Source: Chaetoderma sp. LZ-2023a
Taxonomy: Eukaryota > Mollusca > Caudofoveata > Chaetodermatida > Chaetodermatidae
Reading direction: 5' to 3'
Assembly (NCBI GenBank): GCA_034401795.1
Contig: CM067367.1
Coordinates: 82,321,426 to 82,385,425, forward strand
Length of the DNA: 64,000 nt
Below, piece by piece: positions 1,933 through 58,327 of the stretch. Positions within the stretch are counted from its first letter, which is position 1, and each line of letters starts with the position of its first letter. The position numbers were made by a program, and so were the translations under genes. Under the pieces are notes generated by a model, which was given only the letters and a program-made list of their open reading frames with translations, had not been told where the DNA came from and did no database searches.

Positions 1933-2171
1933 TTAACCCTTTCATGAGGAGGCCGCCAAAACCGGTCTCTACAGTGATCTTGAGGATGTTAATTTGCAGA
2001 TCAAGAGAAGATAGTTTTTGAAAATTCACCACTGAAATGGCTGGCTCGATAATTGAGCCAGTCATTCCAATACTAACTCTTTAAAACAGTCGTCTATTGG
2101 CCTGCAAATAGGCACTCAATAAGCACATTTCTTTTTTACATTCAGACTCAATTTAGGAAATACAGGGTTAA
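1933..2171 (+). mobile_element. MITE-2, full copy with TTAA flanks
   Basis: Reference copy of the second MITE family, about 235 bp. It begins TTAACCCTTTCATGA and ends CAGGGTTAA, so terminal TTAA and a short inverted CCCTTT-type end are visible. The interior is a long palindrome centred on 'GGCTCGATAATTGAGCCAG': the arms include 'AAGAGAAGA' and 'TGGCCTGCAAATAG'. TTAA flanks with CCC-initial ends are characteristic of piggyBac-superfamily elements; no transposase is encoded. Confidence 0.8.
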
Positions 2172-2341
2172 TAAATTATGAGGACGACGATGATGTACCA
2201 TGTCTGTTTAACCTTTCCCGTATTGTATTATAGCATGATTCACATTTGTTGCATTCGAGATACGGTAAGAATTACAGACTTGTTACAGACAGTCTTGAGG
2301 AGTACTATGTGTGTGGTAAATTTCAAAAGAAAAGCACGCAT

Positions 2342-2343
<2 letters not shown>

Positions 2344-2429
<86 letters not shown>
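2344..2429. repeat. (AAT)n microsatellite
   Basis: About 28 perfect AAT units. It creates spurious poly-Ile and poly-Asn reading frames on both strands. Confidence 0.97.
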
Positions 2430-2939
2430 TTGTAGAGGGCGAAAAAGTAGACAGAGTTCGCTAACAATAATGGATCCATCTAAAAATAAAGGCTTGGCTT
2501 CTTCGAAACTACACCTCTATTGTAATGACCAGTCATCTTCTTACGTTATCACAACGACTAAACTGTTACACAGACGCAACTTCGGATACCAGAGAGACTG
2601 GGACCCAGTCTATCTCCGTAGCGGACTGTAAAAGCAACACCGTGGATCGTGAAATCACTACGTCAATGGCTACTCAATAGGCCCCTACATACGAGATACA
2701 TTTCTCGATCTCGTGGGATACGAATGAATAATGGATGTGTGATTATCAGTAGTATCCTTTTGTCTTTAATCCATCCGTGGGAATAAATCCATGTAGGGTC
2801 AATGCAATTATGTAGCAGTATTGATAGACTACCAATGTTCCAAATTTCCAGTCAAAACTGTTGTCAATAATATTGTAGCAGATTGTTGAATACAGAAATC
2901 ATCCGAAAGTGTAGGCCTATGCATGTGCTAAGTTAAGAA
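2430..2939. other. No recognised feature
   Basis: Mixed-composition intergenic DNA between the AAT microsatellite and the satellite block. No long open frame, inverted repeat or recurring segment seen. Confidence 0.4.
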
Positions 2940-3960
2940 CGTCTACAGGAAATTCGGCCACAGAATTTCAACCATATAGTTAGATCGGTATATCAATACG
3001 CTAGTGAAGTAATGGATTGAAGTTAAAAAGTTTTTTTACCATGAAGTAATTTCGTAGTGCACAATTTCATACCGAAAATTTGCTAAATCTCCGGTGATTC
3101 ACAGTTTTCAGTGCCCTATTGTCTGTAGTATGTTTAGCCCCATAATTTCACCTACATAGACTTGAGCCTTAATATACTAGGTATATTCCGAATCTAACAA
3201 ATTCTAGATAAAATAATTTTATTAGGCAAAAATTGACTTAAATGTTGGGGTTTTCGCGCTTTTCGGTGCCCTACTGTCTGTATGTAATATGGTCGGCTTC
3301 AGAACCTCGCTCACATAGACGTAGAGAGATTTGAATACGATAGTTATATTGGGAATTTAAAAAAATTCGACCGTGAATTAATTTCGTAGTATACGATTAC
3401 ATCCCGTAAATTCGTTCCAATTTTGGCAGATCTGCGGGTTTTCAATGCCCTACTATTACCTGTCTGCAATAGGTTTGGTCACATAATTTCACCGATATGG
3501 TTAGATAGCGATATGAACACGCAAATGAATTGTGAGTTTTCTACCACGTAGTAATTTCGTAATATTCAATTTAGTAGCTACGGAGAGTTGTCAAATGCCA
3601 ACAATTTACTATATTCGGTATCCGAATGTCTGTTCTCGATTTGTAATAATTTTTTTTTTATATGGATATATATAACTCAATATGACCTAGTGCTTTAGCA
3701 CAATGCTACCATCAAGTAATCTCATCGTAGGTAATTACATATTCACGCATGCCCCCATTATAATATGGGTGGTTCACATTCACAACATTCAGATAGGTGT
3801 CGGTATGTCCTGGCATATCGCGCATAATGGGTTCGGCTCCAGAATGTCACTCATATGTTTAAATAGGTATAGGCACACGCTTACGGAGTAGTGAGATGAT
3901 TTAAAACTATCTACCATGAAATAATTTCGGCTCAGATTTAGGCCGATTCACGGTTTTCGT
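2940..3960 (+). repeat. Degenerate ~165-bp satellite, block B1
   Basis: Diverged head-to-tail units. A recurring anchor (GTAATTTCGTA-like, followed by an ATTTCAT-like motif) occurs near 3042, 3209, 3373, 3546 and 3713, spacings of 167, 164, 173 and 167 bp. Each unit then shows a 'GTGCCCTA...TGTCTG' element and 'CATAATTTCACC'. Monomers are too diverged for a young satellite. The block recurs at 4765-5960. Confidence 0.7.
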
Positions 3961-8649: not shown

Positions 8650-9047
8650 AATGGATGAATCCAATCTGTCTGTCAAGTAAATAACATCACAATCGATTAC
8701 GTCACACGTAGGCTGACGTCACAAGCATAATTGCCGGAAATAGTCCGTTATATAGCTGGATATGTCTGTCGCATGTACAGATTGTATGTTTTACCATTTA
8801 ATAAACATTCTTTTGAATATTTTGAAACCAATTTGTTTAGATACTGTTGCTACCATAGGCAGCAACAACCCACAGTCAAATTAGTGTCAAAATATTCAAG
8901 AGGTTAGCTGTATAGTTACCATGCAATTTGGATTCTGGGGATTCATTATTCAAAGTATATAAATCTATCTCAATACACGTAACTCATGGGCAGAGTTTAG
9001 CTAGATATGGGCGGGGCATAGCTAAAAGTGGATTCCTCGATTGAATG
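8650..9047 (+). mobile_element. MITE-1, subfamily b, near-complete
   Basis: CRE-like sites (8698-8723), pre-hairpin TTTAATAAACATTC, hairpin with tip 'GCTACCATAGGCAGC', then the subfamily b tail with 'TTCAAAGTATATAAAT' and 'GGGCGGGGCATAGCTAAAA'. It lies about 100 bp outside the left end of the nuclease element. Confidence 0.75.
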
Positions 9048-9153
9048 TGACATCTGCTATTATGATATTTGATCGATTGATAGTGAGGCCTGCTTCAGAG
9101 ATATGAGTATTGTGTGTCTCAATGGTTTACCCTTCATCAGTTCATATCCCTAG

Positions 9154-9236
9154 TAGTGGGGCGGATATGTAACAAATTTGAGGTAAGATGTTCCATTCTA
9201 GCAGAAAGCATGAAATTTGGCATATAGGTGGTTTAA
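9154..9236 (+). repeat. Left terminal inverted repeat of the nuclease element
   Basis: The inner half, from 'CCATTCTAGCAGAAAG' through 'AATTTGGCATATAGGTGG', matches the reverse complement of 12388-12430 almost base for base. The outer half ('GGGGCGGATATGT') matches with two or three substitutions and an 8-base length difference in the middle. The first ATG of the gene lies 4 bases inside the repeat. Confidence 0.8.
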
Positions 9237-9239
9237 GGT

Positions 9240-11933
9240 ATGCTGAACATAATTAGATGTGTCAATGTGATTACGAGTTATAGGTCATTAGCTGATAGCC
9301 TTGATAGGCTACAGCAACTCCATGCCCTTCCACCATGCCTGGATCTATGTAGGTTGAATGATGGATCTGGAATTGCGGAGACGCTCATAGAAAACTGTGC
9401 TAGGTGGCACAAATCTTGTTGGCATCTCTGTAGCCGGACTCGCGCCGTGAAAAGAAATGCGAAATTAGAATCCAGCGATGATCTCAGGTCACCAGTCAAA
9501 TCTAGATTGAGGTCTAATTTCACTATGCCAAGTATAAATGACCCCACTCAACCACTGTGCCTTTTCTGTGAGCAACCGATAGAGCATGACATTCATAGAG
9601 CCGCAATAGCAAAATTTGACCAAAACATACGCAAAATGCTGACAGAACTTAGAGATAAAAAACTTCTTGCTAAAATGTCATCTGGAGACTTGACAACATT
9701 GGATGCTATTTACCACAAGACTTGTTTGACAAAACTATGCACACGAAATAGATCTCTTTCGAGAAGTGGATCTGATATTGCTGACGATATGAAACCTGAC
9801 TCTGTTGCTCTTGCAGAGCTAATATCATACATGGAAGATCGCCAAGTCTCTGAGCATCCTATTGGCAGCATATTTCAGCTTTCTGATTTAACACGATTAT
9901 ACACTCGCCGTCTTGAACAACTTGGTGGTGCTATGCCAAGTAGGATTAACCCTACCAGGTTGAAGGAAAAGATCTTGTCGAAAATGCCAAATGTGGAGTC
10001 AAACAAGAGTAACTATGAAGTGATTCTTACATTCAAGAAAGATATAGGCGATGCTCTATTACCAGCCACCAAAAATTATTCTGATAGTGACGCAATTGCG
10101 TTGATGAGGGCAGCTCAAATAGTCCGCAAAGAGATTCTTCAGATTAAGTATGATTGCACGGGTTCACTTGATGCTGACCAGTATGACAACTTACCTCAAT
10201 CACTTGTTACTTTAGTTCAGATCATACTTGGCTGTACCAACATTCATAATCAAAATGAGAATTCCCAAACTATCAAGGGGGAAGTGTCATCATTGACCCA
10301 GCTACTCATTTTTAATGCCATTAAAGGAGCGCGTAAAAGCAGTATGGGAACTCGCCATAATCCTGATCGGGAAACAGCATTGCCACTCTACCTAGGCCTA
10401 CTAATTCATGCCAAAACGCGTTGATGAGGGCAGCTCAAATAGTCCGCAAAGGGATTTTTCAAATCAAAACAGAAGAAGAGTACCAGAGCCAACAAGAAGC
10501 TTGTTGCAATGAAGAGAGATGCACAGTTATTCTCTAGACTGCACATTTCCTGCCAATCCAGAGACGGAGACCTTGATTCATTCTTTGAGCATGAGAATCA
10601 TCCATGGCCCCCATCACTTGCTGAGAGCAACGCAATGCGCCACGGCAGCAAATCAGATCTGATGGGATGTTTGGAAGCATCAGTAGCTCATGCAGCTGAT
10701 TGTCCAGAGGTTGAAGTGAAGATCATTGGCGGAGCAGCTATGATGCATAATCTAGATCCCAAGAAAGCAAACGTGGTTGTGAACACATTTGGAGATTTTG
10801 CAGAGCACGTCTTCCTCCCACACATTGCTAGACAACTACAGACGGTTAAAAGATTGGATATTGTATGGGACGTGTATAAGGCTGGAAGCTTGAAGACACC
10901 TGTTACAGAATTACGGGGACATGGTGAAGCTCTTCGTGTTGCATCGAGTACAAGACTCTCTCAAAATTGGAAATCTTTCCTACGAGTTGATGCAAACAAA
11001 ACAGGCCTCTTCACCTTTCTCGCACATACATTTGAGTCATTCGAGCCACCAGAAGGAAAGATACTCGTCACAACATGCGAGGAAAACGTGCTGATGAGGC
11101 CAGAGCATGACGTCTCACAACTCGCACCATGCATGCAAGATGAAGAAGATGGTAGAATGTTGCTCCACGCCTTCCATGCATATCACCAAGGTTATCGAAC
11201 AATAATGATTCATGCTACAGATACAGACGTCGTAGTCCTAGCCATACGGACAGCAAATTTTCTTCATGGCTGTGATCCCTGGGTCGCATTTGGCCATGGG
11301 AAGACCTTCCGCTATGTATCAGCTCACGGCATTGCAACAGTTTTGGGTGCAGAAGCGTCACAAGGACTGCTATTTATGCATGCTTTCTCTGGGTGTGACA
11401 CTGTGTCTGCATTTTGTTCGATTGGCAAGAAGACAGCATGGGAAGTTTGGAGGACTTCAGATCTATTCAAGTCACTATTTAGGAGACTGTCTGATGCCCC
11501 GGCGTCTCTGTATGACAATGACATGGAAACGCTGGAGAGGATTGTCGTACTACTGTACAAACGCACATCACCATTGTCAAAGATTAATGAGGCACGAAAA
11601 CGGCTTTTCGCTTTTGGCAACAGGCAGCTAGAAAGTATTCCTCCGACCAGTGCAGCTCTGCTGCAACACACCAAACGTGCTGCGTTCCCTGCAGGTCATC
11701 TTTGGGGCCAATCACTCTACGCAAATGCAAAAACGCCATCGCCAGCTGACTGGGGTTGGGTCAGAGATGGAGACACTTGGTCACCGCAATGGAGTTTGCT
11801 TGCAGACGCATCTAAGGCATGCCGGGAACTCGTGAAATGTGCTTGCAAAAGTAATTGCACTGGCAGAATCAACTGCAATAAATCCAACTTACCTTGTACA
11901 CAGTTGTGCTCATGTGGTGCACAGTGCGTGTGA
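9240..11933 (+). pseudogene. Orphan invertebrate protein: zinc-binding N-terminus, FEN1/XPG-like nuclease core, CXC tail; disrupted
   Basis: Two open stretches in one frame: 9240-10424 (394 codons) and 10509-11933 (474 codons). The first has the WHKSC block at residues 56-60 and a likely Zn site C107/C110 with H159/C162. The second follows FEN1-type nucleases: D121 in WDVY, an acidic cluster E212/E213/D214, D238/D240 in 'ATDTDVVVLAI', then GCD (295-297) and 'SIGKKTAW', which resembles the helix-three-turn-helix of FEN1. Residues 444-473 are a Cys-rich tesmin/TSO1-like CXC module. I recognise the whole as a widespread unnamed invertebrate family. Between the halves there are stops and a misplaced 34-bp copy of upstream coding sequence, and the middle of the family is missing. 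The acidic cluster (DEEDGR) and 'IIGGAAMM', where I expect an Asp, also look degraded. Probably inactive. Confidence 0.7.
10098..10451 (+). repeat. 34-bp direct repeat marking the internal deletion junction
   Basis: Bases 10098-10131 are repeated exactly at 10418-10451 ('GCGTTGATGAGGGCAG' and onward), with weaker similarity for about 18 bases more. The first copy is coding in frame (ALMRAAQIVRK); the second is read out of frame and introduces TGA TGA at the end of the first open stretch. It sits where the central part of the protein should be. Confidence 0.85.
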
Positions 11934-12387
11934 CATCTGTGAATCATGATTCAACAATCAACAGCATCATGTATAGCCTTGCATACTCTAATAGGATAAT
12001 TGAACCTATCTATAACGACCATTACTTGGTTCGATATTAAGAAATCAAGTAATTTAAACTATTTCTAGATGCTATATTGCTTTTGTTGTCAAGAGATGGA
12101 TCTTTTAGATAACACATCTTAAAGAGCCACCGTCTTTTGACATCAAACACAGGTGGTCGCTATGGAAGGATTGATATTTACATATTTAGAGTATTATAGT
12201 TAGTAGAATTATAACGATTGACCCATGAAACCCCTAATTTGACATTAATCCCATCTCTCTACTCCGTCTAGAGCTTGAGTAATGCGAATTTTCCGCTGAG
12301 AAGGCGGCCATTTTGAATCCGCCATTTTGAATGGGTTTCCTTGGTAGAATCACGTGTCACCGCATCTAATTATGATCAGGATACCCA
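11934..12387. other. 3' untranslated part of the nuclease element
   Basis: Non-coding AT-rich sequence between the stop codon and the right TIR. A local repeat of 'GCCATTTTGAAT' near 12309-12332. No AATAAA recognised close to the stop. Confidence 0.4.
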
Positions 12388-12460
12388 AAACCACCTATAT
12401 GCCAAATTTTATGGTTTCTGCCAGAATGGTACTTCTTTTTCACATATCTGCCCTACTATA
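12388..12460 (-). repeat. Right terminal inverted repeat of the nuclease element
   Basis: Reads inward as the reverse complement of the left TIR: 'CCACCTATATGCCAAATT', then 'TTTCTGCCAGAATGG', then 'CACATATCTGCCCTAC' at the outer edge. Followed outside by a MITE-1 fragment. Confidence 0.8.
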
Positions 12461-12489
12461 AGGTAGTCTGTCAAAACGATGATATCTTC

Positions 12490-12711: not shown

Positions 12712-13133
12712 TTTAACATTATCTTGAAATGGACCCTTCCAGTTATAGCCATTCCCCACCCATCTCTAGCTAAGATCCACCCAGACCTCTCTCGTGTTGG
12801 TATTGATCGATCCCTGAGCTCCCTGAATATCAATTTCCAGAAAACAATACATGTAAGTTGTTGAATCTTTTGAAACTAATTTGACTGTGTGACGCAGCAA
12901 CAGCGCAGACTCAAATTAGTTTCAAAATATGTGTGTTGTTGGTTTTATTGGCCGCTCTATTCAACAGAATGTTTATTACGTAGTAAAGACATACAATTCG
13001 TACAGCGTGTCGGACTATTAAGGGTTTAAGCTTAAATCGAGTCATTCATGCTGTAATTGATTGTGACGTCAACTCACACGTAGCGTAGTTAATTATGACG
13101 TCATATGATGATGGATAAACTGGGAAGCTCCAT
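12712..13133 (-). mobile_element. MITE-1, subfamily a, near-complete
   Basis: Minus orientation: 'AATGGACCCTTCCAGTT' on the left in the plus strand and 'GATAAACTGGGAAGCTCC' on the right. It contains 'GATCGATCCCTGAGC', both hairpin arms and two CRE sites near 13072-13106. About 35 bp are inserted within the right hairpin arm near 12930. Confidence 0.8.
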
Positions 13134-17268: not shown

Positions 17269-18116
<848 letters not shown>

Positions 18117-28114: not shown

Positions 28115-29423
28115 TTAATTAATATTTTGTCCAGATTTACATAAATTCATAAAACGATAAAAGAATGAGCTATATAATTGACTTCTATCTCTGTCAAATA
28201 TGAACATTATGAAAGGTTTAAAATCCATTATGACAATTTGTATCGGCCAAGTTATTATTTCTGAAACACTTGATTCTGGGGCTGCTTTATGCCAGTGCGG
28301 TATGGAAAAAGTACAACTAATTAAGAATGATACCCAGTCAATGAGCAGCAAGAATACAAGGACTAACTCTGACCATAGTCTGGGAGATACCAATTTCCTT
28401 CTTACATTAGATTGTGAAATCTGATGACATAAATCTGTGTTCATCATGGAATGGTCGTCTATTATGGCACAGCATCTCCCTTGTACTTGTGAGATGCCTA
28501 CATTTCTGGTAGTTGTGGCAATGTTATCCTCAACATATATGACCGTCTTTCACATGAGCAAGATGAAGATGGCCCTGTTGAGTAACTTTTGTGGTTTCTG
28601 TGGCTATTTCTCCAATTATCATAATTTGTATTCTACTACAGGCATGAGAGAATTATGTACTCTGCGATCTTTGACACATGAATGCATCATTCTAGAAGAG
28701 TTCATCCTTAGTGTAATGCCTATTTTCCTCGAATAGCAAATTGCTATGCACATTAGACTGAGGTTTCCGATTATATTTTCTGTAGAACTGACAACATACA
28801 TAGGAAAAAGGATATGATTAATCCAATGCAGTCCTTATTGCCTTCCATTGTCGAGCCGGTATTGGTATCATTAGCCATACAGTTTATTCTAAAAGCAAGA
28901 TTGTGCAGGGTGGTATTAAAGGATTAATTATCCCAAACATTAATGAAGTCACATTGGACAAGCTGTATGTGTCTTTTGTGTTTCGTCTGACTAATGTGGG
29001 TACAGAATTAATAATGGAAACTATCCAAATAATTGCAGTTCCAAATGATAAACATGTGCGTGTTACAATGCTCTCATATTTCAGAGGTTGTGCTAAGATC
29101 AATATTCGATTTGCAATGAAAATCCCTAGATGACAGAGTACAGAGGCAGATAGAATATTAAAAATCCAGAAAGATAACAGAGCAACAACAGTTAGTTGCA
29201 ACAGATAAGTTAAGATCATGAGAAGTACGAAGATGAGACCGCCAACGAAGATATATCTGATATGTAGGAGGAGAACTATCCATTCATTTGTCATGTGTAG
29301 AGTATGATGGAAAACCAACTTGAGAAGTATGCCTAAGTGTAGTGTATGTAAGATGGCATTTACAGTTAAAGTCGAAAAGAATGGCAATTTACTCATTTCA
29401 TGAACAATGGTATTAATTTTCAA
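28115..29423 (-). pseudogene. Class A GPCR relic 1 (frameshifted)
   Basis: Minus strand. 29423-28884 encodes TM1 to TM4: 'HTLHMTNEWIVLLL' (TM2 start), 'FIANRILILAQPLKY' (the DRY/PLxY region, with NRI in place of DRY) and 'IIWIVSIIN' (TM4). Near 28930 the frame shifts and the second extracellular loop continues out of frame ('FNTTLHNLAF'); near 28810 another shift at a T run leads to TM5 'ENIIGNLSLMCIAICYSRK'. Stops at about 28619 and beyond interrupt the third intracellular loop. 28447-28115 encodes TM6-TM7 and a tail ending 'DRDRSQLYSSFFYRF'. At least two frameshifts plus stops. Confidence 0.8.
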
Positions 29424-29961
29424 TAGAATATTAGTGGAGAACCGTTAAGAGGTCAATGTGCTAGGCAGTTACCATCCTCAATAATGTCATCTGAAGCTAG
29501 ACCGAGCTGAGCTAGCATCTCTCTTACCAGGATTACATATCACAACTTTGTCCTGAACATGGTTCCTTCTGAGTGTCAAAATGAAATATGCAAATTGCTT
29601 CATTAAATAATTAACCAGGTGAGATTTTGCATATTCTATATGCCACATTAACAAAGCATGTATCCGGTAACAAGATAATAGTCTCACATGAGTAATACTC
29701 AGTACTGTATTATCTTATAAATTGTATTTAATGTCTAGCTAACAGATTTGAATGTCATGTAAAACAAATGTTATCAGTGCACATTGAAATAATTCTACAA
29801 AGCAACCATAATTCTTTTATAATTACGACACGAATAGCATAGATATAAATCTGCATAATCACATGGGCTTAGACATTTACAAATTAGATTAGATTGTGTT
29901 CCTACCAAACACCACGATTGAAGACCAACGAAAGGGGGTGGGATCTGATCTGTTACGCATG
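29424..29961. other. 5' flank of GPCR relic 1
   Basis: No coding evidence. 'ATAATTCTACAAAGCAACC' near 29790 resembles sequence near 42190 upstream of GPCR relic 3, supporting shared ancestry of the flanks. Confidence 0.35.
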
Positions 29962-30170
29962 TCTCTAAACTAATTTGACTGGGATATGTTGCTGTCATAT
30001 ACAACATTAACCCAATAAAATTAGTTTCGACATTATCCACAGATTAACTGTATAATTGCCGAAGGATTTGGAGTCTGTGAATCCAGGATTTAAAGTATAT
30101 AAATCGATTCTAAAACATGGGAAAGGTGGGTAGATCTTATCTAGAAATGGGCGGAAATAGATGGTATGGA
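29962..30170 (+). mobile_element. MITE-1 subfamily b, 5' truncated
   Basis: Begins in the left hairpin arm ('AAACTAATTTGACTGGG'), keeps the right arm in degraded form, then 'AAAGTATATAAATCGATTC' and 'TAGAAATGGGCGG'. CRE arm absent. Confidence 0.6.
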
Positions 30171-31100
30171 TCGTGCTTTGGTCGTATGCACATTATTCCA
30201 CTTTCATGCCACAAGCTTCACATTAAGGTCTATATAGATTCAGATAGTAAAATGAAACAAGTTCTTCTGGCAATACAGATTTAACTTTTAATAACAGAAC
30301 ACACAAGATTCACTAACTTCACAGCAGATATTTTAGCCTCTTCATTCTGAAGGCAGAAACAGGATTTCAGGCAATATATCACATCCTCATTATTTCTAAC
30401 ACAGCTTGAATGAAATGCGGCATTGTGGTAATAATTAGCAAATGACACAAACAATTCTGGATACACAACACATTCTATCATGCTACTGTGTTCGCATTAC
30501 AGTGACGTCACACGTGCAACCAATTGTTATTCATTTCACTTTAATTTTTGAAACTGAAATACTCAATTCAAAAGCTCATTTACAGTTTAATTAGGATTCT
30601 CTTGAATATTTTGAAACTAATTTGTCTGGGAACTGTTTTCGCCCATGGTGACAACAGGACAGTACAGCTCAGAAATAGCACTGTGGTTTCAAAAACTAAA
30701 TTAAAATGTACTGTTAAATGTTTTGAACAAAATTGTGTTTGAAGACAGTGCTGTAGAAAGTGGCAATAATGTCTACATACGGCAGCAAAGTCTTACAATC
30801 CAAATATGTTCCAAATATTTAACAGAACGTTTCTTGCTAAGTAAAATCTTTCTGTTTATGTTTCGGAAACATGTTAAATAATTTATGAGCTACGTATATA
30901 ACATCTTTTATTTGTATGGTGATATCAGAATGTGTTTATGCAGCTCTTCAGATCTACTAGCTTTGGTGTAAGTTGTGTACTTAGATATGTGTGAATAGAG
31001 GTCATTACCTGCACATCTCTATGATGCTATGCGCGATATTATCTAATCATTGTCAGGACTAATTAACAATTTCAACTGTAATATCACACATTATAAATTT
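30171..31100. other. Upstream flank of GPCR relic 1, with degraded MITE-1
   Basis: 30480-30850 contains a heavily decayed MITE-1: 'CAGTGACGTCACACGTGC', 'TTGAATATTTTGAAACTAAT', and a right-arm remnant 'TTTCAAAAACTAAA'. About 30740-31060 resembles 38700-39060 and, in part, 43300-43480: shared marker 'CAGCTCTTCAGATCTA'-like then 'GTGTGAATAGAGG'-like. These appear to be paralogous flanks of the three receptor relics. Confidence 0.45.
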
Positions 31101-31101
31101 G

Positions 31102-31313
31102 TAACCCATTCATGTTGAAGCCGGCCCAACTCGGCCTCTACAGTGGTCTTGAGGAATATCCATTTGTAGCTCAAGAGAAGCCTTTTTTTTTTAATTTACC
31201 ACTGTAATTCCAGTGAAAAATTTTCAAAAATATTCTTCTCTTTGCCTGCAAATAGACATTCAATAAAGAGATATTTTGATTTTCGTGACAAAATTTGGTC
31301 ATTAAGGCATTAA
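31102..31313 (+). mobile_element. MITE-2, nearly full copy
   Basis: Left 'GTAACCCATTCATGTTGAAG', 'GCCGGCCCAACTCGGCCT', shortened palindrome centre, right 'AGATATTTTGATTTTCGTG' and TTAA at 31310. Left TTAA mutated. Confidence 0.7.
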
Positions 31314-31476
31314 GCAAATATTGTTGAGTCATTGTAGGTTCAATCAATACTTGCTTCATTCAGAAATGGTTCTCACTCCTGGACTACTATTGGGTGTTAA
31401 GAAGTAGATGTCAAGTACATTATGAGACGAAGTACATGCAGATTGTGTAATTTCTGCAAAGCAAAGGGGAAATACA

Positions 31477-31827
31477 ATTGACCTTTCCAGTTTATCCATC
31501 CATTACAAGGCATCATAAACATTTGCATCACGTGTAGGATGATGTCATAATCAATTACTGCATGCATGACTCGATTTAAACTTATAATAGTCCAACATGT
31601 TGTACGAATTGTATGTCTTTGCTATTTAATAAACATGCAATTGGATATTTTGAAACAACCCCAGTCAAATTAGTTTCAAATGATTCAACATCTGACCTGT
31701 ATAGTTTTCTGGAAATTGATAGTCACTGAGTTCAGTGATCAATCGATTCAAACATGGGCAAAACATGAGTGGGGCTTAGCTAGAGATGGGCGAGCATAGA
31801 TAGAAATTGGAGAGGTCAATTCTGATT
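31477..31827 (+). mobile_element. MITE-1, subfamily a, hairpin tip deleted
   Basis: Ends pair well: CAATTGACCTTTCCAG on the left and 'ATTGGAGAGGTCAATT' on the right. AATAAA at 31629; 'GATATTTTGAAACAACCCCA' shows that most of the left arm and tip is missing while the right arm is intact. Confidence 0.8.
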
Positions 31828-32800
31828 ATTGATACTCGATATAATACCAATTCAAGATCAGTTTGTCAGGTGTGAAAATTTAAAACTGACAATTCAAAGC
31901 GATGGCGTCCATTAGGCAAATGCTAATGCTGCAGATTAACATTTCCACCATATTGTATATACTTATAGTTTGAATGAATATCAGCTACATGCCCATACAC
32001 ATGCACGTAGTAAATCGTATGATTTAGATAAGAATTTATGGGGGGAAAAACGATGGATGCCACACATATGATAGAAAGATAAATGTTGTATACTAAATCA
32101 AATTTTAGAAACTTATAGTTATATTATTTCATCCTTTATGTTCGTGTTACATGGAAATTGATTTTTTGTGTGACATTTTCAGCAGTGCATCTGAAAGGAA
32201 TGGATAATGGATCATAAAATGCCATGTGAATCTTATTATGCTTGATTGAAACATCATATCAATGAATTTGATGCCAATGTATACGCAATCATATCCATCA
32301 TGATATTTGAAAAGCTAATCTCGGTTTCCTGTTGTGCTATTTATAAGGGAATTCCACATACATGCAATTGCATGAACAGTGATTTGTAGGATCCCTTATC
32401 CGTTCTTTCCAGTTTCAACTTTAAGACTGCTAAAAATGTCACACAGAATAACAATTTTCATCGTTAAGTAATGTATACAAAATGATGAGTAATATTCTTG
32501 TAGGAACTTGCATATTGAAGAAAATATTTGCAGATCAGATATACGACTTATTTAAGTTCAGATTTTTGTAATGCTTATCCCTACGTTTTTTTGAAGAAAA
32601 GTGCGGATTGTGCCAAATGAAGAATTATATAGTATTGCACAAAAGTCATTTCCAAAAATTCAGATTGCAGTAACTCATTTGAAACCTGATGATATGATGG
32701 TTTCAAAATGTGCATGAAATATATAGATTGCAAGTGAAATAACAGAAAAACAATTGAGACAACAAAGTGATATTTTGTCAAAAGTATTAATATTATAACA
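31828..32800. other. No recognised feature
   Basis: AT-rich intergenic DNA. No long frame, no inverted or direct repeat recognised. Confidence 0.4.
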
Positions 32801-32872
<72 letters not shown>

Positions 32873-32923
32873 CTGCGATTTATCGCAGATTATTGTTTTT
32901 TCTCTGGATCTTTATTCTTATTC

Positions 32924-32990
<67 letters not shown>
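32801..32990. repeat. (ATT)n tracts split by a palindrome
   Basis: Two ATT tracts (32801-32870 and about 32923-32990) on either side of a 22-bp palindrome, AATCTGCGAT/ATCGCAGATT, at 32870-32891 and about 30 bp of unique DNA. The palindrome marks the left end of the repeat that follows. Confidence 0.9.
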
Positions 32991-32991
<1 letters not shown>

Positions 32992-32992
<1 letters not shown>

Positions 32993-34760
32993 TCAACGAT
33001 ACTCGCAAACTATCTCCTCATACAGTTTTAATCTGATTAACTTCAAACTTTGTCAACTTGTAGTACCCCTTGAGGTCTAGTTTGCTTGTACTTTTCTTCT
33101 CGATCGGATGTATGGTTTCCAAGATATCCTCATTTCCGCGGGCAAAGAGTCCCATAGGAAATGTATGGGAGCAATATTCAGACAGCGACTACTCCTAGGA
33201 TTTTCAGTCAATCATCTTGAAACGTCACAGACTTCTAACACAGTTGATCCACATCTTCATCCAAAACATGTTTTGAGTACGGTGACCAGATTTGGAGAAA
33301 ACCCAGCATAAGCCTAATTTTTTTGAAACAAGATACATCATATTTCTAGGGTGGTCAGATGGTTGAAATTTGGCATATACGTAGATGTATTATACTACTC
33401 TTGACTAGTGAAACAAACTCGTTAGCAAACATGTTAGCCATACAGATCTCTGCATTTCCGTACCCACCATGTCCTCATAGGAAATGTATGAGAGCAATAT
33501 TCGGATACTGACTGCTCCTAGAGTGTTGTGTCTATTATCTTGAAACTGGAAACACTTCTAACATGTCTTGACCCACATGTTGACACAGAATATTGTTTGG
33601 GTCTGGTGACCCGTTTTTCAGAAAATCCGGCATACGCCCAATTTTTTGGAATCAAGATAATTCATATTTCTAGGTTGGTCAGATGCTTCATATTTGGCAT
33701 ATACGTGTATACATTATACTCCTATTGATTAATAAAATAGAATCATTGGCGAACATGTTAACCTTTCAGAAAGCTGCATTTCCGTTCCCAACATGTCCCA
33801 TAGGGAATGTATGGGAGCAATATTCGGTCAGCGACTGCGCCTAGGATTTTTTCTGTATCATCTTGAAACCTAACATATTTCTAGGCTCTGTTGATCCACA
33901 AGTTGACCCAAAAAATCTTTTCGCTTCAGTGAGCAGTTTTTGGGAAAATGCTGCATAAACAAAATTATTTGACATCATGAGAATTCTTAATTCTGTCCCT
34001 GTCGGAGGATTTATATTTTTGACATTCCTAGATACCAGAGGCTACTATTGCTTACTAAAATAAAATCGTTAGTGAACATATTAACATTGCTATTATTGCA
34101 AATCTGCACACTAAACAATATTTCCATGATTTGCTGATAAATTACGGAATTACGGTCGGGTTATCTGGGGCGGAATTGCCTCTCAGACACCATTTACAGA
34201 ACTTCGATATCCCGAATGGTTCATGAGATATAGAGATTTTTTTTTTATCGTAGACAAATATTTCAATAGGGATTGCATTGGAAATCGATTTTATGATAAA
34301 TGACCCAGTTTTGGAAATATCATATCTAAACTTTGTACATTTCTTGTATGCACCAGGTGTGTATAGATCATCTACACAAATAAGATCTGATGCATGGTTC
34401 CAGAGAATTCCACGTTTTCTTGTCCAAAAAATCCAATTGGAAATTTAAGGGAGTGCTATTCAGACAGCAACTCGTCCTAAAGTTTTTTGCAGATCATGGA
34501 GAAACTTAACAGACTTCCATCATCTGTTAACCCGCATCTGACACTTACATATTTTCCTGGTCCATTGAGTACTATTTGCGATTCCTAGCCTCCAAACTTG
34601 AGACACTTTCAGTAAACCTTAGGGCCTGGGATGCTTTTATTTTTCTTTTGGATCCAGCAAATAATTTCTGAGGAATACGCTTATCCATGCCCAAAATGCC
34701 CCATATGAAATGTACTCCCTTACATTTCCAATATTGATTTGACTCAATCAATTTCAACAG
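32992..34760 (+). repeat. Interspersed repeat with 323-bp tandem units
   Basis: Anchor CCCATAGGAAATGTATGGG-like occurs at 33151, 33474 and 33797 (period exactly 323 bp), with diverged versions near 34432 and 34690. Each unit also carries an AGCAATATTCGGACAGCGACT-like run, 'CATCTTGAAAC' and an 'ATTTGGCATATACG' motif. Units are about 70-80% alike by eye. Related 'TCATCGCAGATTTA' near 35105 may be the right end. No convincing protein; reading frames are short. Confidence 0.75.
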
Positions 34761-35146
34761 GCAAAGGGCGGTAAATCATGCCAAAAACAAAAATTGGTCA
34801 GTTTTGTGCAGGAATTGCCTCCCTTCCCTTTAATTCATTAATTTCTCCTTTATTTGACATTAAATGGCCTTTTCCTTGATTTTGGTAAAGATTTCACCAT
34901 AGCAAATCAGGACACATTATTTTATACTTTAGGGTCAAAGCTATCGGTTTTCAAGAAATCAGCTTTTCCATTCCCTGTGAAAAACTATGGGAATTTCAAC
35001 TATGGATCTTTGAACTGCGACAACACTTAGAATTTTTATCAGATCAGCATCAGACATGTTCAATGATCGTGTGAGAAGAGGGCTTATAACACTCCTTAAT
35101 GTTCAGTCATCGCAGATTTACAGTTGCTTCAGTAAATGTGTTCTAG

Positions 35147-35153
<7 letters not shown>
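34761..35153. other. Right part of the 323-bp repeat element
   Basis: Less repetitive continuation, closing near 35105 with 'TCATCGCAGATTTACAG', which echoes the palindrome at 32870. Confidence 0.4.

Positions 35154-35192
<39 letters not shown>
35154..35192. repeat. (ATT)n microsatellite
   Basis: About 13 ATT units. Confidence 0.95.
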
Positions 35193-35193
<1 letters not shown>

Positions 35194-36405
35194 TCATTGC
35201 TTAAAATGTACATGCTAATATTCTATGTCACAATGACATCATTATTATGCAGTCCATCATTTCAATATCAACAAAGTTAATAGACCAATAAAGAATGCAT
35301 TGCTGTACGTTTTTATGTTTCAGTACACTATTTCAGGAAAAAAGAGGAAAACAATGAGATTCTTGATGAAATTGGAAAAATACCTTTATAAATATTAAAA
35401 TTTTGATGCCAGCTAACAAATGAAATATTTTGGTTAGTACCCTAGATACTTGAGTAACAGATCGGATCCATCCATAATTATGTATAAATTACCGTAGATT
35501 TTGCCAGATTCATGTGCTTTTACACATCTAGATTTTTATTTTATGACAGATGACAAATATTTTTGAATTTTTAAACCATGTCAAACATAAATTCCAACTT
35601 GTCAAATCTATTACACGTGTTAGCCGATTTGATTTGAAACACGCTAAAGCTTGATTCAGCATTCTACTTCTTGACTTATATGCTGAATTCAATAGGCAAA
35701 CGCAAATTCAAATCAGATCTTCTCTATACCATTATCCAATAAAATTATATGTAGAAATATGGTGCAAAATGCTTTTTGTGTAAATATATGGACTGTTTTC
35801 TATATTTATGTAAATGATTACGTACATCATTATTACAAAGATATATTGAACATCATGTGCATTTAGCATTATTTTTTTAATTGATTTTCTTTCAAATCAT
35901 CATTTTAGTTTCCATTTTAGACTAGAGAAAACAGGCACTGCAAATCCTCACCCACCAGTTTTGGTCACAGTGCAAAAGGTTTTTAGACTTTCCCGACTTC
36001 GAATTTTCCAGAATTTTTCCTTGTATTTTCTGAATCCTGCTCAAATTTGTAGAATCATAGTGTACTGTCACACCCTTACATGTGTTAAGATTTCGGGCCA
36101 GTCATTTGTGATATTTACATAGATCTAGAATTTGATCTGATATAGATCTGTGTTCATTCATGTGGATGATGGCCACAATCTGGACATCCTTTTACACGGT
36201 AAGTTCCCTTGTTGTATTAACATTTGAGGCAAATTGGATCAGTGCTATTTAGATACACCTCCGTACACATACACATACACATTGCACGCATGCATGCAGA
36301 CATGTTTGCATGCACGCACGCGTGCAGACATGCATGTATACATGCAGGCACGCATGCATACAGGTACCCATGTACAAACATGTGCACGTGTCTGTACGCA
36401 CAGCA
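35193..36405. other. 3' flank of GPCR relic 2; CATG-rich tract
   Basis: Mostly unassigned AT-rich DNA. 36261-36390 is a purine-pyrimidine alternating tract rich in CATGCA, ACACAT and GCACGC, producing spurious His/Cys/Thr-rich frames on both strands. Confidence 0.5.
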
Positions 36406-37635
36406 TTATTCTATACTTTGGGAGCATTTTAATAAATTCACAAATCTACATATGAATGATTTGTACACATGCCTTCTATCTCTGTCGGATATAAACCATA
36501 GAAATGGTGTAAACTGGATTATAGACAGTTGCATCAGCGACGTAACAACCTCTTGATGAATGTATGAATGTGCTTCCCTATTACAATTTTGTATTAAAAT
36601 AATAAAACTAATAAGAAATGGTGTCCATCCTACGAGCATCATCAATAGAAGGATTAATCCTGACCGTAGATGGAGCACTGACAACTTTATTCTTGTATTA
36701 GTCTGCGAAATTCTATTCATTACAGAATGGCTGTCTACTGTGGAACTGCATCCCCCTTGTACCTCTGACATTTCTATGTTTCTGGTAGTTGTGGCAATGG
36801 TATCATGAACACACACCTTGTCAATATGTCAGCCTGGCTTAGCTATTGAGTTTTCTGTAGATGTTTGTCTAATAATTTGTAATATTTCTTTATGTCTGAG
36901 AGAATTATTTTCCACGCCATTTGCCATGGATAGCGGCATTATTTTCAATGAGCTTGGTTGTACGGTCATGTGCATTTTTCTAGAATGCCAAAAGGCAATA
37001 CACAGAACTCCGACGCTTCCTATTATATTTACAATAACATTGGCAACATTCATAACAAACGATATGATCAATCCTGTGCAGTGATGTTCCGTTTTTGAAT
37101 TTGCATCAGAGCCTCTAGCAGTACAATTCTCTATGAAATGAAAAGTGTACAGCGTTATATTAAAGGACGAGTCCGAGCAAGGTAAAATCACACTTGAGTT
37201 ACGGTTCGTGGCTTCTGTAACTCGTCCAACCAAGTGTGGTACATTGTTAATTATGGAAACTATCCAAACACTCACAAATACTAGTGCTAGCCGTCGGCGT
37301 GTTACAATGTTCTCATATCTCAGGGGTTGAACTAAGATCAATATTCGATTCACGATGAAAATACTCAGATGACATATAATACATGTGGATAGTATAGCAG
37401 AAATTGTGAAATACAGTAAAGCCAGAAAAGATGTTTTAACCAGATACATTAGACTCATTAGAGGTACCAGGATGAGACCTCCAATAAAGATATATCCACT
37501 AAGCAGAAGGAGAATTATCCATTCATTTGTCCTGTGTAGAGTATGATGGAAAGCTAACTTGAGAAGTATATCATAATGCACTGTGTGCAAGGCAGCATTC
37601 ACAGTTAAAACCATAAAGTAGGCGAAGTTACACAT
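36406..37635 (-). pseudogene. Class A GPCR, single in-frame stop (relic 2)
   Basis: Minus strand, intronless, about 408 codons in one frame broken by a single TGA at 36831-36829 in the third intracellular loop. Start: ATG at 37635-37633; the frame upstream is closed by TGA. TM1-2 span roughly residues 5-65 ('HRTNEWIILLLLSGYIFIGG'), TM3 about 69-100 ending N96-R97-I98 in place of DRY and followed by QPLRY, TM4 about 113-133 (W124), ECL2 has sequons at N146, N159 and N170, TM5 about 188-215. After the stop, TM6 has 'LVGWTPFLIS' (the WxPF motif) and TM7 ends 'FTPFLWF' where NPxxY is usual, then a short tail. Best preserved of three paralogues; ligand unknown. The stop could be a base error; the 'LDK' / 'IDKV' context matches relic 3, so the reading frame is right. 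Confidence 0.8.
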
Positions 37636-37904
37636 TTTAAATACGATAATATATCAGGTTGACAGAGAACTGTTCGTGGATAGTCATGCCGAATACCTGA
37701 AGATAGAATCGCGATATTTCATTCGTCACCTGAACTATACATTTCCAACAGAATATAATATTATAAGTCAATGTCCGTCACCTGTGAACTATCAAGTGGC
37801 CAATGTTCCATTTGTTTGCCCAGTTTCCTGGAGTCATTTGAAACGGTCAAGTGACCAATGTACCCAGTGGTTGTCCAGTTAGATGGAGTCATTTCTCGCT
37901 CTAA
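37636..37904. other. 5' flank of GPCR relic 2
   Basis: No repeat or coding evidence recognised; the likely promoter lies here if the gene was ever expressed. Confidence 0.3.
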
Positions 37905-38345
37905 TTAACCAACAGCTCAGTTCATGAGAAGACAAATATAAAACTAAATGCAGAAAACACTTCAAGTAAAGCTTCAAAATTAAATATTACAAACTGGATC
38001 ATTAATTAATAGAACTTTCCACTTTATCCATCCATCCTATGACATCATAATCAACTATGTGACGTGTAGAAAGACAACAGCACCCAATCAAATTAGTTAC
38101 AAAATATTCAACAGCTTACCTGTATAGGTTTCAGGAGATTTATAGTTATGGCATTCGGGGATCGATCAATCACAACATGGCGAAGTGTGGGTGGAGCTTA
38201 GTTACTGATGGGCTGGGCAGAGCTAAATGTGGTAAGGTACATTAACAACACTTCAATTACTGAGAAGACAAAAGATAACTAAAGGCAGAAAACACTTCTA
38301 GTAAAGCTTTAAAATTAAATATTACAAACTGCATCATTAATTAAT
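37905..38345. repeat. ~105-bp direct repeat with a MITE-1 in between
   Basis: 37905-38008 and 38245-38345 are near-identical direct repeats: both contain 'TGCAGAAAACACTTC'/'GGCAGAAAACACTTC', 'AAATTAAATATTACAAACTG' and 'CATCATTAATTAAT'. The MITE-1 at 38012-38244 occupies the junction. Confidence 0.8.
38012..38244 (+). mobile_element. MITE-1, internally deleted
   Basis: Left end 'GAACTTTCCACTTTATCC', CRE-like sites degraded, then a jump to the right hairpin arm ('CAATCAAATTAGTTAC'), tail and right end 'AAATGTGGTAAGGTACATT'. The pre-hairpin block and left arm are missing. Confidence 0.75.
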
Positions 38346-39587
38346 TATTCAGGCGATATCAGATAATACGATTGTATTGTATATATACACAAATCTACAA
38401 GCACAATATATGCCACGCACAGTCGTGTCAAATCATTTCTTGATATAAAAGTTTGATTATTCGTAATATTTTCATATATTACCACTAGCTGTCACTGCAA
38501 ATTGAAGTGAATGCACACGAACGTAAATATCTGTAACAATTTAGCATGAACCACTGTCGCTTAACAAATTGTAGTAACTAGTCACATTACGGTTTATAAA
38601 TAAGTAAAAAATAAGTTCCAAAAACGAGAAACGTATAAGTGGTACAATTTTAAACACAGTATAAGAAATATTATATTGAATATTTTATAATTATTGGATT
38701 GTAAGAGATTGTTTCCTTGAGCAACAATGTCTTAAGCAACAATGTCTTACAATCAAATTATGTTCAAAATAATCAACAATATATATTATTTTGTTTTTGG
38801 AAACACGTTCAGTTATTTCTGAGTTCTGCTGTATGCAAAAATTGTGACATTAGTCAGTGGATATTAGCATTTTATGATACTCATTACTTTTTATAAAATG
38901 TTGTTGATCTAATATTATTATGATTCTAAAATCATTATCGAAATAATACATGCTTTAATTGTATGATGTTATGAGTGTGAGTTTGCGCAGCACTTAAGAG
39001 CTGATGGTGTTTCGGTAAGGTGTCTATTTAGAGGTTTGTGATTAGAGGCTCAAAGCAGAACATTTCTTTGTTGTTATGCATATATTATCTGATAATTTTA
39101 AAGCGCAATTAACCATTTATACCAGAAAATCACAGATTATCAATTTCTAAGACAGCACAGAGTAGTGTAGTTGAATTATTTGAAATTAATTTTTGCAGAC
39201 TTTGTTGTTGGGAATCGATTGCCCTCACTGACGGGTGTCACGTGTTAAGATGTAGCATCTACACGTCATGTGTTAAACTGTAGTTTCTACAAATGTTATT
39301 CAGTGTTGTAACATTTATCTTTTTAGCGATTTCTAAATATTTTGTAGTTGAATGATTAAGCAAATGGGAAATAAAATTCTGAGTACAATTGACGCTATAG
39401 CGACTCGGGATTATTCTGTCAGCTGTAGCGCGTGTATTACTGACAGTGAAAATAGAGCACGTCCGCTAAGGAATATACAATGCTGCAGAAATAGAGTACC
39501 ACGAACGAGGTCCCATTTAATATCATTATTATCAATTGAGTTGAAAAATAGTTTGCTTGCACAAGCTTTAGCGAGTACAAAGTGATA
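38346..39587. other. Upstream flank of GPCR relic 2
   Basis: 38560-39150 resembles 30740-31100; markers such as 'GCGCAGCACTTAAGAGCT' and 'TTATCTGATAATTTTAAAG' align with that flank. 38713-38755 has an imperfect tandem 'GAGCAACAATGTCTTA' / 'AAGCAACAATGTCTTA'. No genes recognised. Confidence 0.4.
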
Positions 39588-39617
39588 AAGGGCCTTTCCA
39601 GTTTTAGCTATGTCCCA

Positions 39618-39684
<67 letters not shown>

Positions 39685-40047
39685 AGTTCCATCCACATCT
39701 CGCTCGTGTTGTGCTTGATCGATCTCTGAACTCGCTGACTTTCAGTTTCCAGAAAGCTATACAGTTAAGCTGTTGAATAATTTGAAACTAACTTGACTGG
39801 GTACTATTGATGCCTATGGCAGCAACAGCGCCCTCTCAAATTAGTTTCCAAATATTCAACAGTATGTTTATTCAATAGCAAAAACACACAATTCGTACAA
39901 CTTGTCGGACTATTAAGCCTTAAAAACTGGCTTAATCGAATCATTCATGATGTCATGATTATGACATCAGCATACACATCACTAAGTTGGTTATAATGTC
40001 ATATGACATCAGATGATCGATGGATAAACTTGGACACGTCCATTGTC
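39588..40047 (-). mobile_element. MITE-1 with internal (CT)n
   Basis: Minus copy: 'GGGCCTTTCCAGTTTTAGC' at left, 'GATCGATCTCTGAACTC', a well preserved hairpin with tip 'TTGATGCCTATGGCAGCAAC' and right end 'GATAAACTTGGACACGTCC'. The normal 'CCCATCTCTAGCTAAG' motif has expanded into 63 bp of CT at 39621-39683. Confidence 0.85.
39621..39683. repeat. (CT)n microsatellite inside MITE-1
   Basis: About 31 perfect CT units, seeded from the element's own ATCTCTAG motif. Confidence 0.95.
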
Positions 40048-40613
<566 letters not shown>

Positions 40614-40675
40614 GAGATGTACATACTTTGATTAATCGAGAAAAGAAAGATCTATATAATTGCCTTCTCTCCCTG

Positions 40676-41636
40676 TCAATATATAAAACATATGGCTGGT
40701 GTAAGTTGCATTGTGACCATTTGTATCATCCACGTTATTCTGTTTGAAACAGATGATGCTGATGCTACATTAATGCAGTGTTGTATTGAAAAAATAAAGC
40801 TGATTAGGAACGATGCCCAGCCAATCATCATCATCAAGAATAAAAGGACTGATCCTGGTCGTAGTTGTGGAAATGACAATTTCCTTCGTAAATTAGATTG
40901 AGAAATTTATCGCATGAATTTGTGCTTATGATAGAATCGCATTTGATTATTGCACTGGCACTTTCTTGCACTTCTGGCATTTCCACATTTCTGGTAGTTG
41001 TGCCAGGGTTCTCTTGAATACGTAGTTCGGAACAGATGATCACTTTGTCAAGAGCTTCCTCGGGAGGGTCTATTTTATTTTCTATGGATGTTTGTCTTTT
41101 CGTCATAATTTTAATTCTGTCTTTACTTTGGGGCAAATTTTGTCTGCAATTTTTACCAGTTAACGGCATCCCTTTAAAATACTTCGGCCTTACAGCCCTG
41201 TGGAATTTACTAGAATGCCAAACTGCTATGCCCATTAGTCCAATGTTGCCTATTAGATTTAGTGTTGCATTAGCCACATGCATAGAAAACAGTATGATTG
41301 ATCCAATGCAGTTAATCCTGTTTTCACATGTTGAATTTGCATCGATACCATTAGCAGTGGTGTTTCGACTGAAGCTAAGATTATGAACGGTTGCATCAAA
41401 GGAAGAGTTTAAATGTTGCGGAGTCGAATTGTTATTTTCCATTGTCCAAACAAAAAAACAATCCAGACAGTTGCAATCACTAATGCTAAACGTCGGCGTG
41501 TCACAATGCCCTCATATCTCAGAGGGAAAGCTACAGTCAAAAGTCGATTTCCATTGAAAATACGTTGATGGCATATGATACACACATCTAGTATGTTAAT
41601 TATTAAAGCCGATGCATAAAAAGCATGTGTTTGCAC
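40676..41636 (-). pseudogene. Class A GPCR relic 3 (5' truncated, frameshifted)
   Basis: Minus strand. 41636-41409 covers TM3-TM4 ('FNGNRLLTVAFPLRY', 'RRRLALVIATVWIV'). At a T run near 41450 the frame shifts. 41442-40834 carries ECL2 with several sequons, TM5 'LNLIGNIGLMGIAVWHSSK' and an open third intracellular loop including 'PGTTTRNVEMPEVQ', which matches relic 2 after its stop codon. Near 40893 the frame shifts again into TM6 ('MMMIGWASFLISFIF', P of WxP lost) and TM7 ('MQLTPAICFIY', then stop). TM1-TM2 not found. At least three disabling changes. Confidence 0.8.
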
Positions 41637-57099: not shown

Positions 57100-58100
57100 G
57101 GTCTAAATAATAATAATAATAATAGGATATTTATAGTGCGCTATAATTCCACGCAAATATTGCGTCCTCTAAGCGCTTACAATAATAAAATAAAATGATC
57201 ATATAGTTGGATATGCCTGACGGAACAAAAACGTTTTAAGATTTGATTTAAATATAGCTAGAGGGGATGAAGATTTAAGACTAGCTGGAAGATCATTCCA
57301 TTCTGTAGAAGCAACAAAAGCAAATGTTCTGTGACCATAGGTTTTTGATTTAACTTTCGGAATTTTAAGCAGGTTTAGATTTGCAGATCTAAGTGGCCTG
57401 CTTGGCGTGTACGTTTCTAGCAGTTCTGAAAGGTAGGTTGGTGCTGTAGAGATGATACATTGATAGGTTAGGCAGAGGACTTTGAAGCGTATTCTCTGTT
57501 CTATTGGAAGCCAGTGAAGATCTTGGAGAATGGGACTGATATGATCACTCTTACGCTTTAGGGAAACAACTCTAGTGGCTGCATTCTGAATTGCTTGGAG
57601 TTTGCGCATAGCATCTTTTGAGGCGCCTATAAACAGACTGTTACAATAGTCTAACCTTGAGATAATTAATGTTAGTACCAGCATAATAGCAGCTTCGCGA
57701 GTTATGTATTTTCTGATGTTTGATATATTCCGCAGCTGCATAAAACACACTTTACGCAGATAACGGACATGATGTTCCATACTAAGTTCATTGTCTAACA
57801 TGACACCCAAGTCCTTAACAGTGTCTACCAAGGGAATTTGAGCTGAGCCGATGGTAATCGCAGATAACTCTGTTTTGGCACGCCGAATTGCTGGCCCAAT
57901 CAACATCGCTTCGGTTTTATCATCATTCAACATCAACATGTTAGAGGTCATCCATAATTTAATATCGGAGCAACAGTTTGTTATTTGATTGGAAGCGATA
58001 GTTGCAGTGGATGTGGATGGCGTAAAATTGTTGATTAGTTGAGTATCATCTGCGTAAAGGTGTCTTTTGATATTATGTGTTTCGATTACTGAACCTAAAT
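57100..58100 (-). pseudogene. Non-LTR retrotransposon, 5'-truncated 3' end
   Basis: Minus strand. Open from about 58100 to the stop at 57199: catalytic 'HLYADDTQL' at about 58062-58036, then 'NMLMLNDDKTEAMLIG', 'LDYCNSLFIGASKDAM', 'AIQNAATRVVSLKRK', 'LHWLPIEQRIRFKVL', and 'FKSNLKTFLFRQAYP' at the C-terminus. No internal stop in the surviving part, so relatively young. The 3' UTR contains 'GTAAGCGCTTAGAGG' and 'TATAGCGCACTATAAATA'-like motifs with an ATT tail, as in CR1/L2-type elements. The 5' part and endonuclease are absent, the usual dead-on-arrival form. Confidence 0.9.
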
Positions 58101-58327
58101 ATCTGAAAGCAATACAAAATGTACTGACTGAATGTTTTATTATTGCTTATAATGAGGAAAGTATCATCTTAACAAGAGGCCTAACGGCCTGTCGCTCACC
58201 TGCAACATTAGCATTTGAAATACTGGGTAGTTCATATCTCATGAAAATATATTTCGTGAAACTTCTACAGGATGACAGATAGATTCTATGTTTTAATACG
58301 GAATATTCTTCGAAATAAGGTCTTAGT
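58101..58327. other. No recognised feature
   Basis: AT-rich sequence between the LINE and the SINE-like element. Confidence 0.4.

Follow-up and report, generated by a model that had tools for sequence, protein, structure and literature searches.

What kind of element is marked by an orphan gene with FEN1-like motifs and a Cys-rich tail lying between matched terminal inverted repeats (TIRs)? The locus was analysed within a stretch of 64,000 nucleotides from Chaetoderma sp. LZ-2023a (contig CM067367.1), referred to here as the window. The original prediction was that the protein may be the enzyme of an undescribed transposon lineage in which a FEN1/PIN nuclease replaces the DDE transposase, or a frequent passenger of one. 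Our analysis points elsewhere: the locus is very probably a non-autonomous, internally deleted copy of an Academ-type cut-and-paste TIR transposon (AcademX lineage), and the FEN1-instead-of-DDE reading is not supported.

Boundaries and target duplication

A repeat search of the window identified inverted arms at 9185-9259 and 12363-12437 (75 nt, 88% complementary). Based on alignment to other copies, window 9154-12458 is a TIR transposon copy of 3305 bp, with termini TAGTGGGGCGGATATG... on the left and, inverted, TAGTAGGGCAGATATG... on the right. It contains two ORF remnants, 9237-10424 and 10443-11933, the second of which carries the FEN1-like motifs. The repeat search and the copy alignment thus confirmed that inverted repeats enclose a gene relic, with coordinates and motifs essentially as originally given. 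The features are as follows, L042 being a longer copy described below.

9151..9153, no strand: TAG, the triplet flanking the left end, which forms an imperfect target duplication with TAA on the right (flank comparison)
9154..12458, plus strand: whole element, internally deleted (3305 bp versus 5718 bp in L042; alignment of its two termini and of three segments to L042)
9154..9272, plus strand: left TIR, truncated by the first deletion; matches L042 element 1-121 (alignment to L042)
9237..10421, plus strand: N-terminal part with Cys/His motifs (ORF and alignment to L042)
9265..9272, plus strand: first deletion junction, microhomology ATGTGATT (8 bases; alignment to L042)
10418..10467, plus strand: templated filler at the second deletion junction; contains in-frame stops (alignment to L042)
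10443..11933, plus strand: C-terminal part, FEN1/XPG-like region and Cys-rich tail; matches the element from 3717 on (ORF and alignments)
12174..12458, minus strand: right TIR (alignment to L042 and terminus from copy comparison)
12459..12461, no strand: right flank triplet TAA (flank comparison)

Within the right TIR, window 12174-12437 matched the left end of L042 (positions 32-295, inverted) at 86%.

The original prediction had noted TA abutting both ends. Comparison of copies showed that this is not the signature: the family ends are TAG...CTA, and the duplication is 3 bp of a sequence that varies between copies. The flanks of the window copy, TAG and TAA, differ by one mismatch. Across 33 loci examined, 18 had both ends, and 14 of these carried an exact 3-bp target duplication, the TAG end point having been set after many of the same copies had been viewed; the window copy is among the four without. 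In 2000 shufflings of the flanks, exact duplications numbered 1.5 on average and never exceeded 6. When the repeated locus L024/L025 was counted once, the proportion was 13/17. The count excluded L039 and L041, which cover L010 and L018 again as longer stretches and showed no left TIR. Among later copies, L042, L043, L047, and L048 fit the TAG end point; L040, which lies in an (AT)n run, does not.

A search for an empty site of the window insertion yielded none among 40 scored matches of 83 candidates, which comprised only the insertion's own flanks and partial repeats. Second, weaker inverted and direct repeats flank the element at 8790-9032 and 12738-12992, an arrangement reminiscent of insertion into a pre-existing foldback repeat.

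Recurrence in the genome

The 2.44-Gb genome (2753 contigs) was searched using the left TIR, the second ORF, and the middle region of longer copies. These searches yielded 40 scored matches from 1221 first-look candidates, 86 from 14729, and 114 from 9998, respectively; neither the candidates nor the scored matches are counts of element copies. The left TIR was 99-100% identical over 83 bases in all 40 scored places, the window itself included. We then excised 30 protein copies with 1.5 kb on each side, a set that includes the window copy and one insertion listed twice. The right TIR was located 3' of the gene in 28 of the 30, again including the window copy, and the left end was within reach in 15. 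With the left TIR recurring in 40/40 places and the right TIR found downstream of the gene in 28/30, chance is excluded as the source of the inverted repeats. A host gene with accidental repeats was also rejected, as the TIRs recur together with the gene. Other copies share the TIRs and a duplication of constant length, which supports the prediction that the gene is part of a TIR element.

Short TIR-only derivatives, whose existence had been raised with the original prediction, were not seen: at eight loci from the TIR search (L001-L008), no second TIR was within reach 1.5 kb inward. Of the seven loci besides the window's own, internal deletions over the same distance were present in five (L002, L004, L005, L007, and L008) and absent from two (L003 and L006).

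Deletions in the window copy

Copy L042 (contig C17) is 5718 bp long, has the same ends as the window copy, is flanked by a CCT/CCT duplication, and has all parts present, its own reading frame being broken. The window aligned to L042 in three segments, corresponding to element 1-121, 805-1965, and 3717 to the end. The first deletion removes approximately 680 bp, including the first codons of the protein. Specifically, window 9259-10420 matches element 805-1965 and begins within the coding region, lacking the segment that holds the start codon in L042. The first ATG of the window copy, at 9238, lies in terminal sequence that the deletion brought up against the gene interior, so that its closeness to the left repeat is a deletion artefact.

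The second deletion removes the middle region (element about 1966-3716). In L042, the N-terminal and FEN1-like parts are separated by approximately 1.75 kb of coding sequence that is absent from the window copy. The junction contains a short shared sequence and a 50-bp filler that is a copy of element 1652-1699, also found at 10098-10147. Beyond it, the C-terminal part retains the motifs QDEEDGR, DTDVVVLA, and GCDTVSAFCSIGKKTAW. Other genomic copies carry different deletions. In P and hAT elements, deletions of this pattern are attributed to interrupted gap repair with template switching, and the arrangement in the window copy would be as expected from that process.

Full-length protein and related families

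In L043, an unbroken frame of 961 codons takes in the N-terminal part and the middle region and reaches the start of the C-terminal part; it ends upstream of the DTDVV and GCDT motifs, which occur in the next open pieces. A second family, represented by L047 and L048, provided a longer frame. In L047, 1492 unbroken codons contain the N-terminal, middle, and FEN1-like parts in that order, stopping before the Cys-rich tail. Based on this single continuous frame, the three parts constitute one protein. The second family has a different TIR sequence with the same TAG...CTA ends, duplications of GTA/GTA and TGT/TGT (L047 and L048), and TIRs of approximately 388 bp, as compared to approximately 290 bp in L042.

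Two further families (L049/L051 and L050) have the same order of parts in broken frames, with the tail present in L049 and L050. The stretches fetched for L049, L050, and L051 showed no TIRs. Overall, the middle region was present in L042, L043, L047, L048, L049, L050, and L051, with broken frames in L042 and L050. A nuclease-only transposon was rejected on this basis, as other copies have the middle region.

An undeleted element would thus be pictured as approximately 5.7 kb in length, starting with TAG and ending with CTA, with TIRs of approximately 290 bp, a 3-bp target duplication, and one large protein. This protein would comprise approximately 1500 residues: an N-terminal Cys/His part, a middle region with a putative D-D-E triad, a FEN1/XPG-like nuclease, and a Cys-rich tail.

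The family of L050 (e.g., G000:C4:46436800-46444300) occupies sixteen listed places of equal score with an identical 813-codon frame, which suggests a recently spread Academ-like family. The equally spaced pairs of this family on C1212 and C1991 may be duplicated contigs.

The middle region

Sequence identity in the middle region was 39-73% between families, fragments included. Conserved motifs include DN(I/V)DHNP (altered in L049), DQ..YA, and DQ.HEQ. Residues D299, D302, D474, and E688 (numbering of the L043 frame) are shared by representatives of four families: L043, L047, L051, and, in the positions that align, L050. Of these, D302, D474, and E688 are natural candidates for a D-D-E triad, a choice that is not forced, since 26 acidic positions are conserved in the alignment. 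Among the 30 protein copies, the E-motif stretch occurred upstream of the nuclease part in 22, the second D in 12, and the first D in none, the first D of an undeleted copy being outside the 1.5 kb fetched per copy.

Profile searches gave no significant Pfam or PDB match to the middle region, and an AlphaFold model based on 11 sequences failed (mean pLDDT 33). The DDE (RNase-H-like) fold is therefore inferred, and the long middle region is probably the usual transposase.

The FEN1/XPG-like part

The second part of the protein is probably FEN1/XPG-like. A structure model of this part had a mean pLDDT of 49. In a structural search, 46 of the 50 matches listed belonged to the FEN1/XPG/EXO1/GEN1 and XRN 5' nuclease superfamily. 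Like these nucleases, the C-terminal part has acidic motifs and a GCD....GIG.K.A motif. In contrast to them, it has no Pfam XPG_I match, shares approximately 10% identity in the structural alignments, and sits inside a transposon protein of approximately 1500 residues. Sequence searches were less informative: no Pfam match to either ORF was accepted, XPG_I included, no PDB sequence matched the second ORF, and a PDB profile search with the FEN1-like part listed 6 sequences, none of them a FEN1 and the top one a GTPase (E 0.014). The predicted FEN1/PIN nature is thus retained as a probable FEN1/XPG likeness on modest evidence, with the low model confidence and the Pfam and PDB profile searches counting against it.

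No relatives were found in viral contigs. Scanning viral and genome contigs for degenerate motifs gave three matches, all of which proved on translation to be due to chance, and no FEN1 relatives were confirmed in either set.

Classification

The AcademX nuclease is of the XPG/FEN1 type. The window copy is defective and belongs to a family that is new but of an already known kind, likened to Academ by published description. The Academ superfamily is credited to Kapitonov and Jurka 2010 in the excerpt of PMC4455052; that work and Kojima 2020, on the superfamily and its AcademX lineage, are relayed in excerpts of PMC10045372 and PMC4455052. In the former, AcademX has duplications of 3 or 4 bp and AcademH of 9 or 10 bp, which are related to the encoded nuclease and helicase, respectively. 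The excerpt of PMC9587614 lists Academ among superfamilies with a DDD/E transposase, a DDE/D status also given in that of PMC10294476, where 100 curated Academ elements from bivalves have a mean consensus length of 5565 bp. A group combining a DDE/D transposase, a nuclease, and a 3-4 bp duplication was therefore already in print, at least as excerpted (PMC10045372, PMC9587614, PMC10294476), and the reading as an undescribed lineage is not supported. A full-text search of the literature collection used here found no paper joining Academ with XPG and transposase.

The element agrees with these excerpted descriptions of Academ/AcademX in its TIRs, its 3-bp duplication (3 or 4 bp reported), the encoding of a probable nuclease with a putative transposase, and its length (approximately 5.7 kb versus the bivalve mean of 5565 bp). 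The window copy itself differs in being defective, without the putative transposase core. AcademH belongs to the same superfamily by the literature but, in the excerpt of PMC10045372, has a helicase and 9-10 bp duplications, as opposed to 3 bp here; no helicase was noticed in the element frames read. According to the excerpt of PMC9587614, the Kolobok lineages KolobokP, KolobokE, and KolobokD similarly combine a transposase with an accessory nuclease, but have TTAA-specific 4-bp duplications and other nuclease types. As no Academ reference sequence was aligned, the superfamily assignment rests on architecture, length, and duplication.

In such an element, cutting and joining at the TIR ends would be carried out by the middle region, while the nuclease part may trim flaps or aid processing. 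Interrupted gap repair after excision could then generate internally deleted copies, the window copy among them. A different division of labour, in which the fused FEN1/XPG-like domain is directly catalytic, for example by a non-transferred-strand or flap cut that sets the 3-bp duplication, and the D/D/E region performs only strand transfer, appears unlikely.

We consider it quite improbable that the element is from a different superfamily, known or new, whose likeness to Academ is limited to having TIRs, a 3-bp duplication, and a transposase with a nuclease. The likeness was drawn from descriptions rather than a reference protein, and no Pfam model matched, as such a reading would have it. 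Nevertheless, the probable nuclease, the 3-bp duplication, and the length of approximately 5.6 kb agree with the excerpted Academ descriptions, and the D/D/E residues are compatible with the DDE/D status of Academ.

The originally proposed reading, in which a lineage devoid of DDE and HUH enzymes uses the FEN1/PIN-type nuclease as its transposase, is very improbable. The FEN1-like part is the sole catalytic-looking domain in the window copy and is conserved across families, at 41-44% identity to that copy, and neither the structure model nor the profile search of the middle region supported the rival DDE fold. However, the middle region of the longer copies, which encode a protein of approximately 1500 residues, is about equally conserved and keeps the D, D, and E; the group in the literature that matches belongs to the DDE/D type; and the window copy is a deletion derivative. 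Complete copies lacking a further conserved region of catalytic type were not found, the middle region being putatively catalytic. The proposal of a FEN1-driven transposon was based on a copy whose probable transposase core had been deleted.

Finally, it is likewise very improbable that the nuclease gene is a passenger, or a host gene that an unrelated transposon has captured. FEN1-like proteins usually serve the host in repair, and this genome has a canonical host FEN1 (L052). However, the nuclease part is fused in frame with the remaining protein (L047), has the same position in the order of parts across four families, of which two have known and different TIRs, and is only distantly related to L052 (pairwise BLASTP E 0.006 over 47 residues).

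Under the Academ-type classification, an orphan FEN1-like/Cys-rich gene between matched TIRs can be the surviving ends of a middle-deleted element. Such genes should be masked as repeats and annotated neither as genes nor as a new transposase class. At least four such families occur in this genome, some with long open frames, and provide material for studying the role of the fused nuclease.

Other features of the window

An Rfam search of the window found nothing useful. On the minus strand, several similar frames at 28115-41511 resemble 7TM receptors. One of four scanned reached Pfam 7tm_1, at E 0.0022, under the cut-off, and the frames appear to be degenerate copies of a receptor gene clustered at this locus. 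Also on the minus strand, a reverse transcriptase ORF fragment at 57199-58146 (RVT_1 E 0.0017, under the cut-off) is likely a LINE remnant. A long CA/TG dinucleotide repeat of approximately 0.7 kb, seen in the translations, lies at about 17270-18000.
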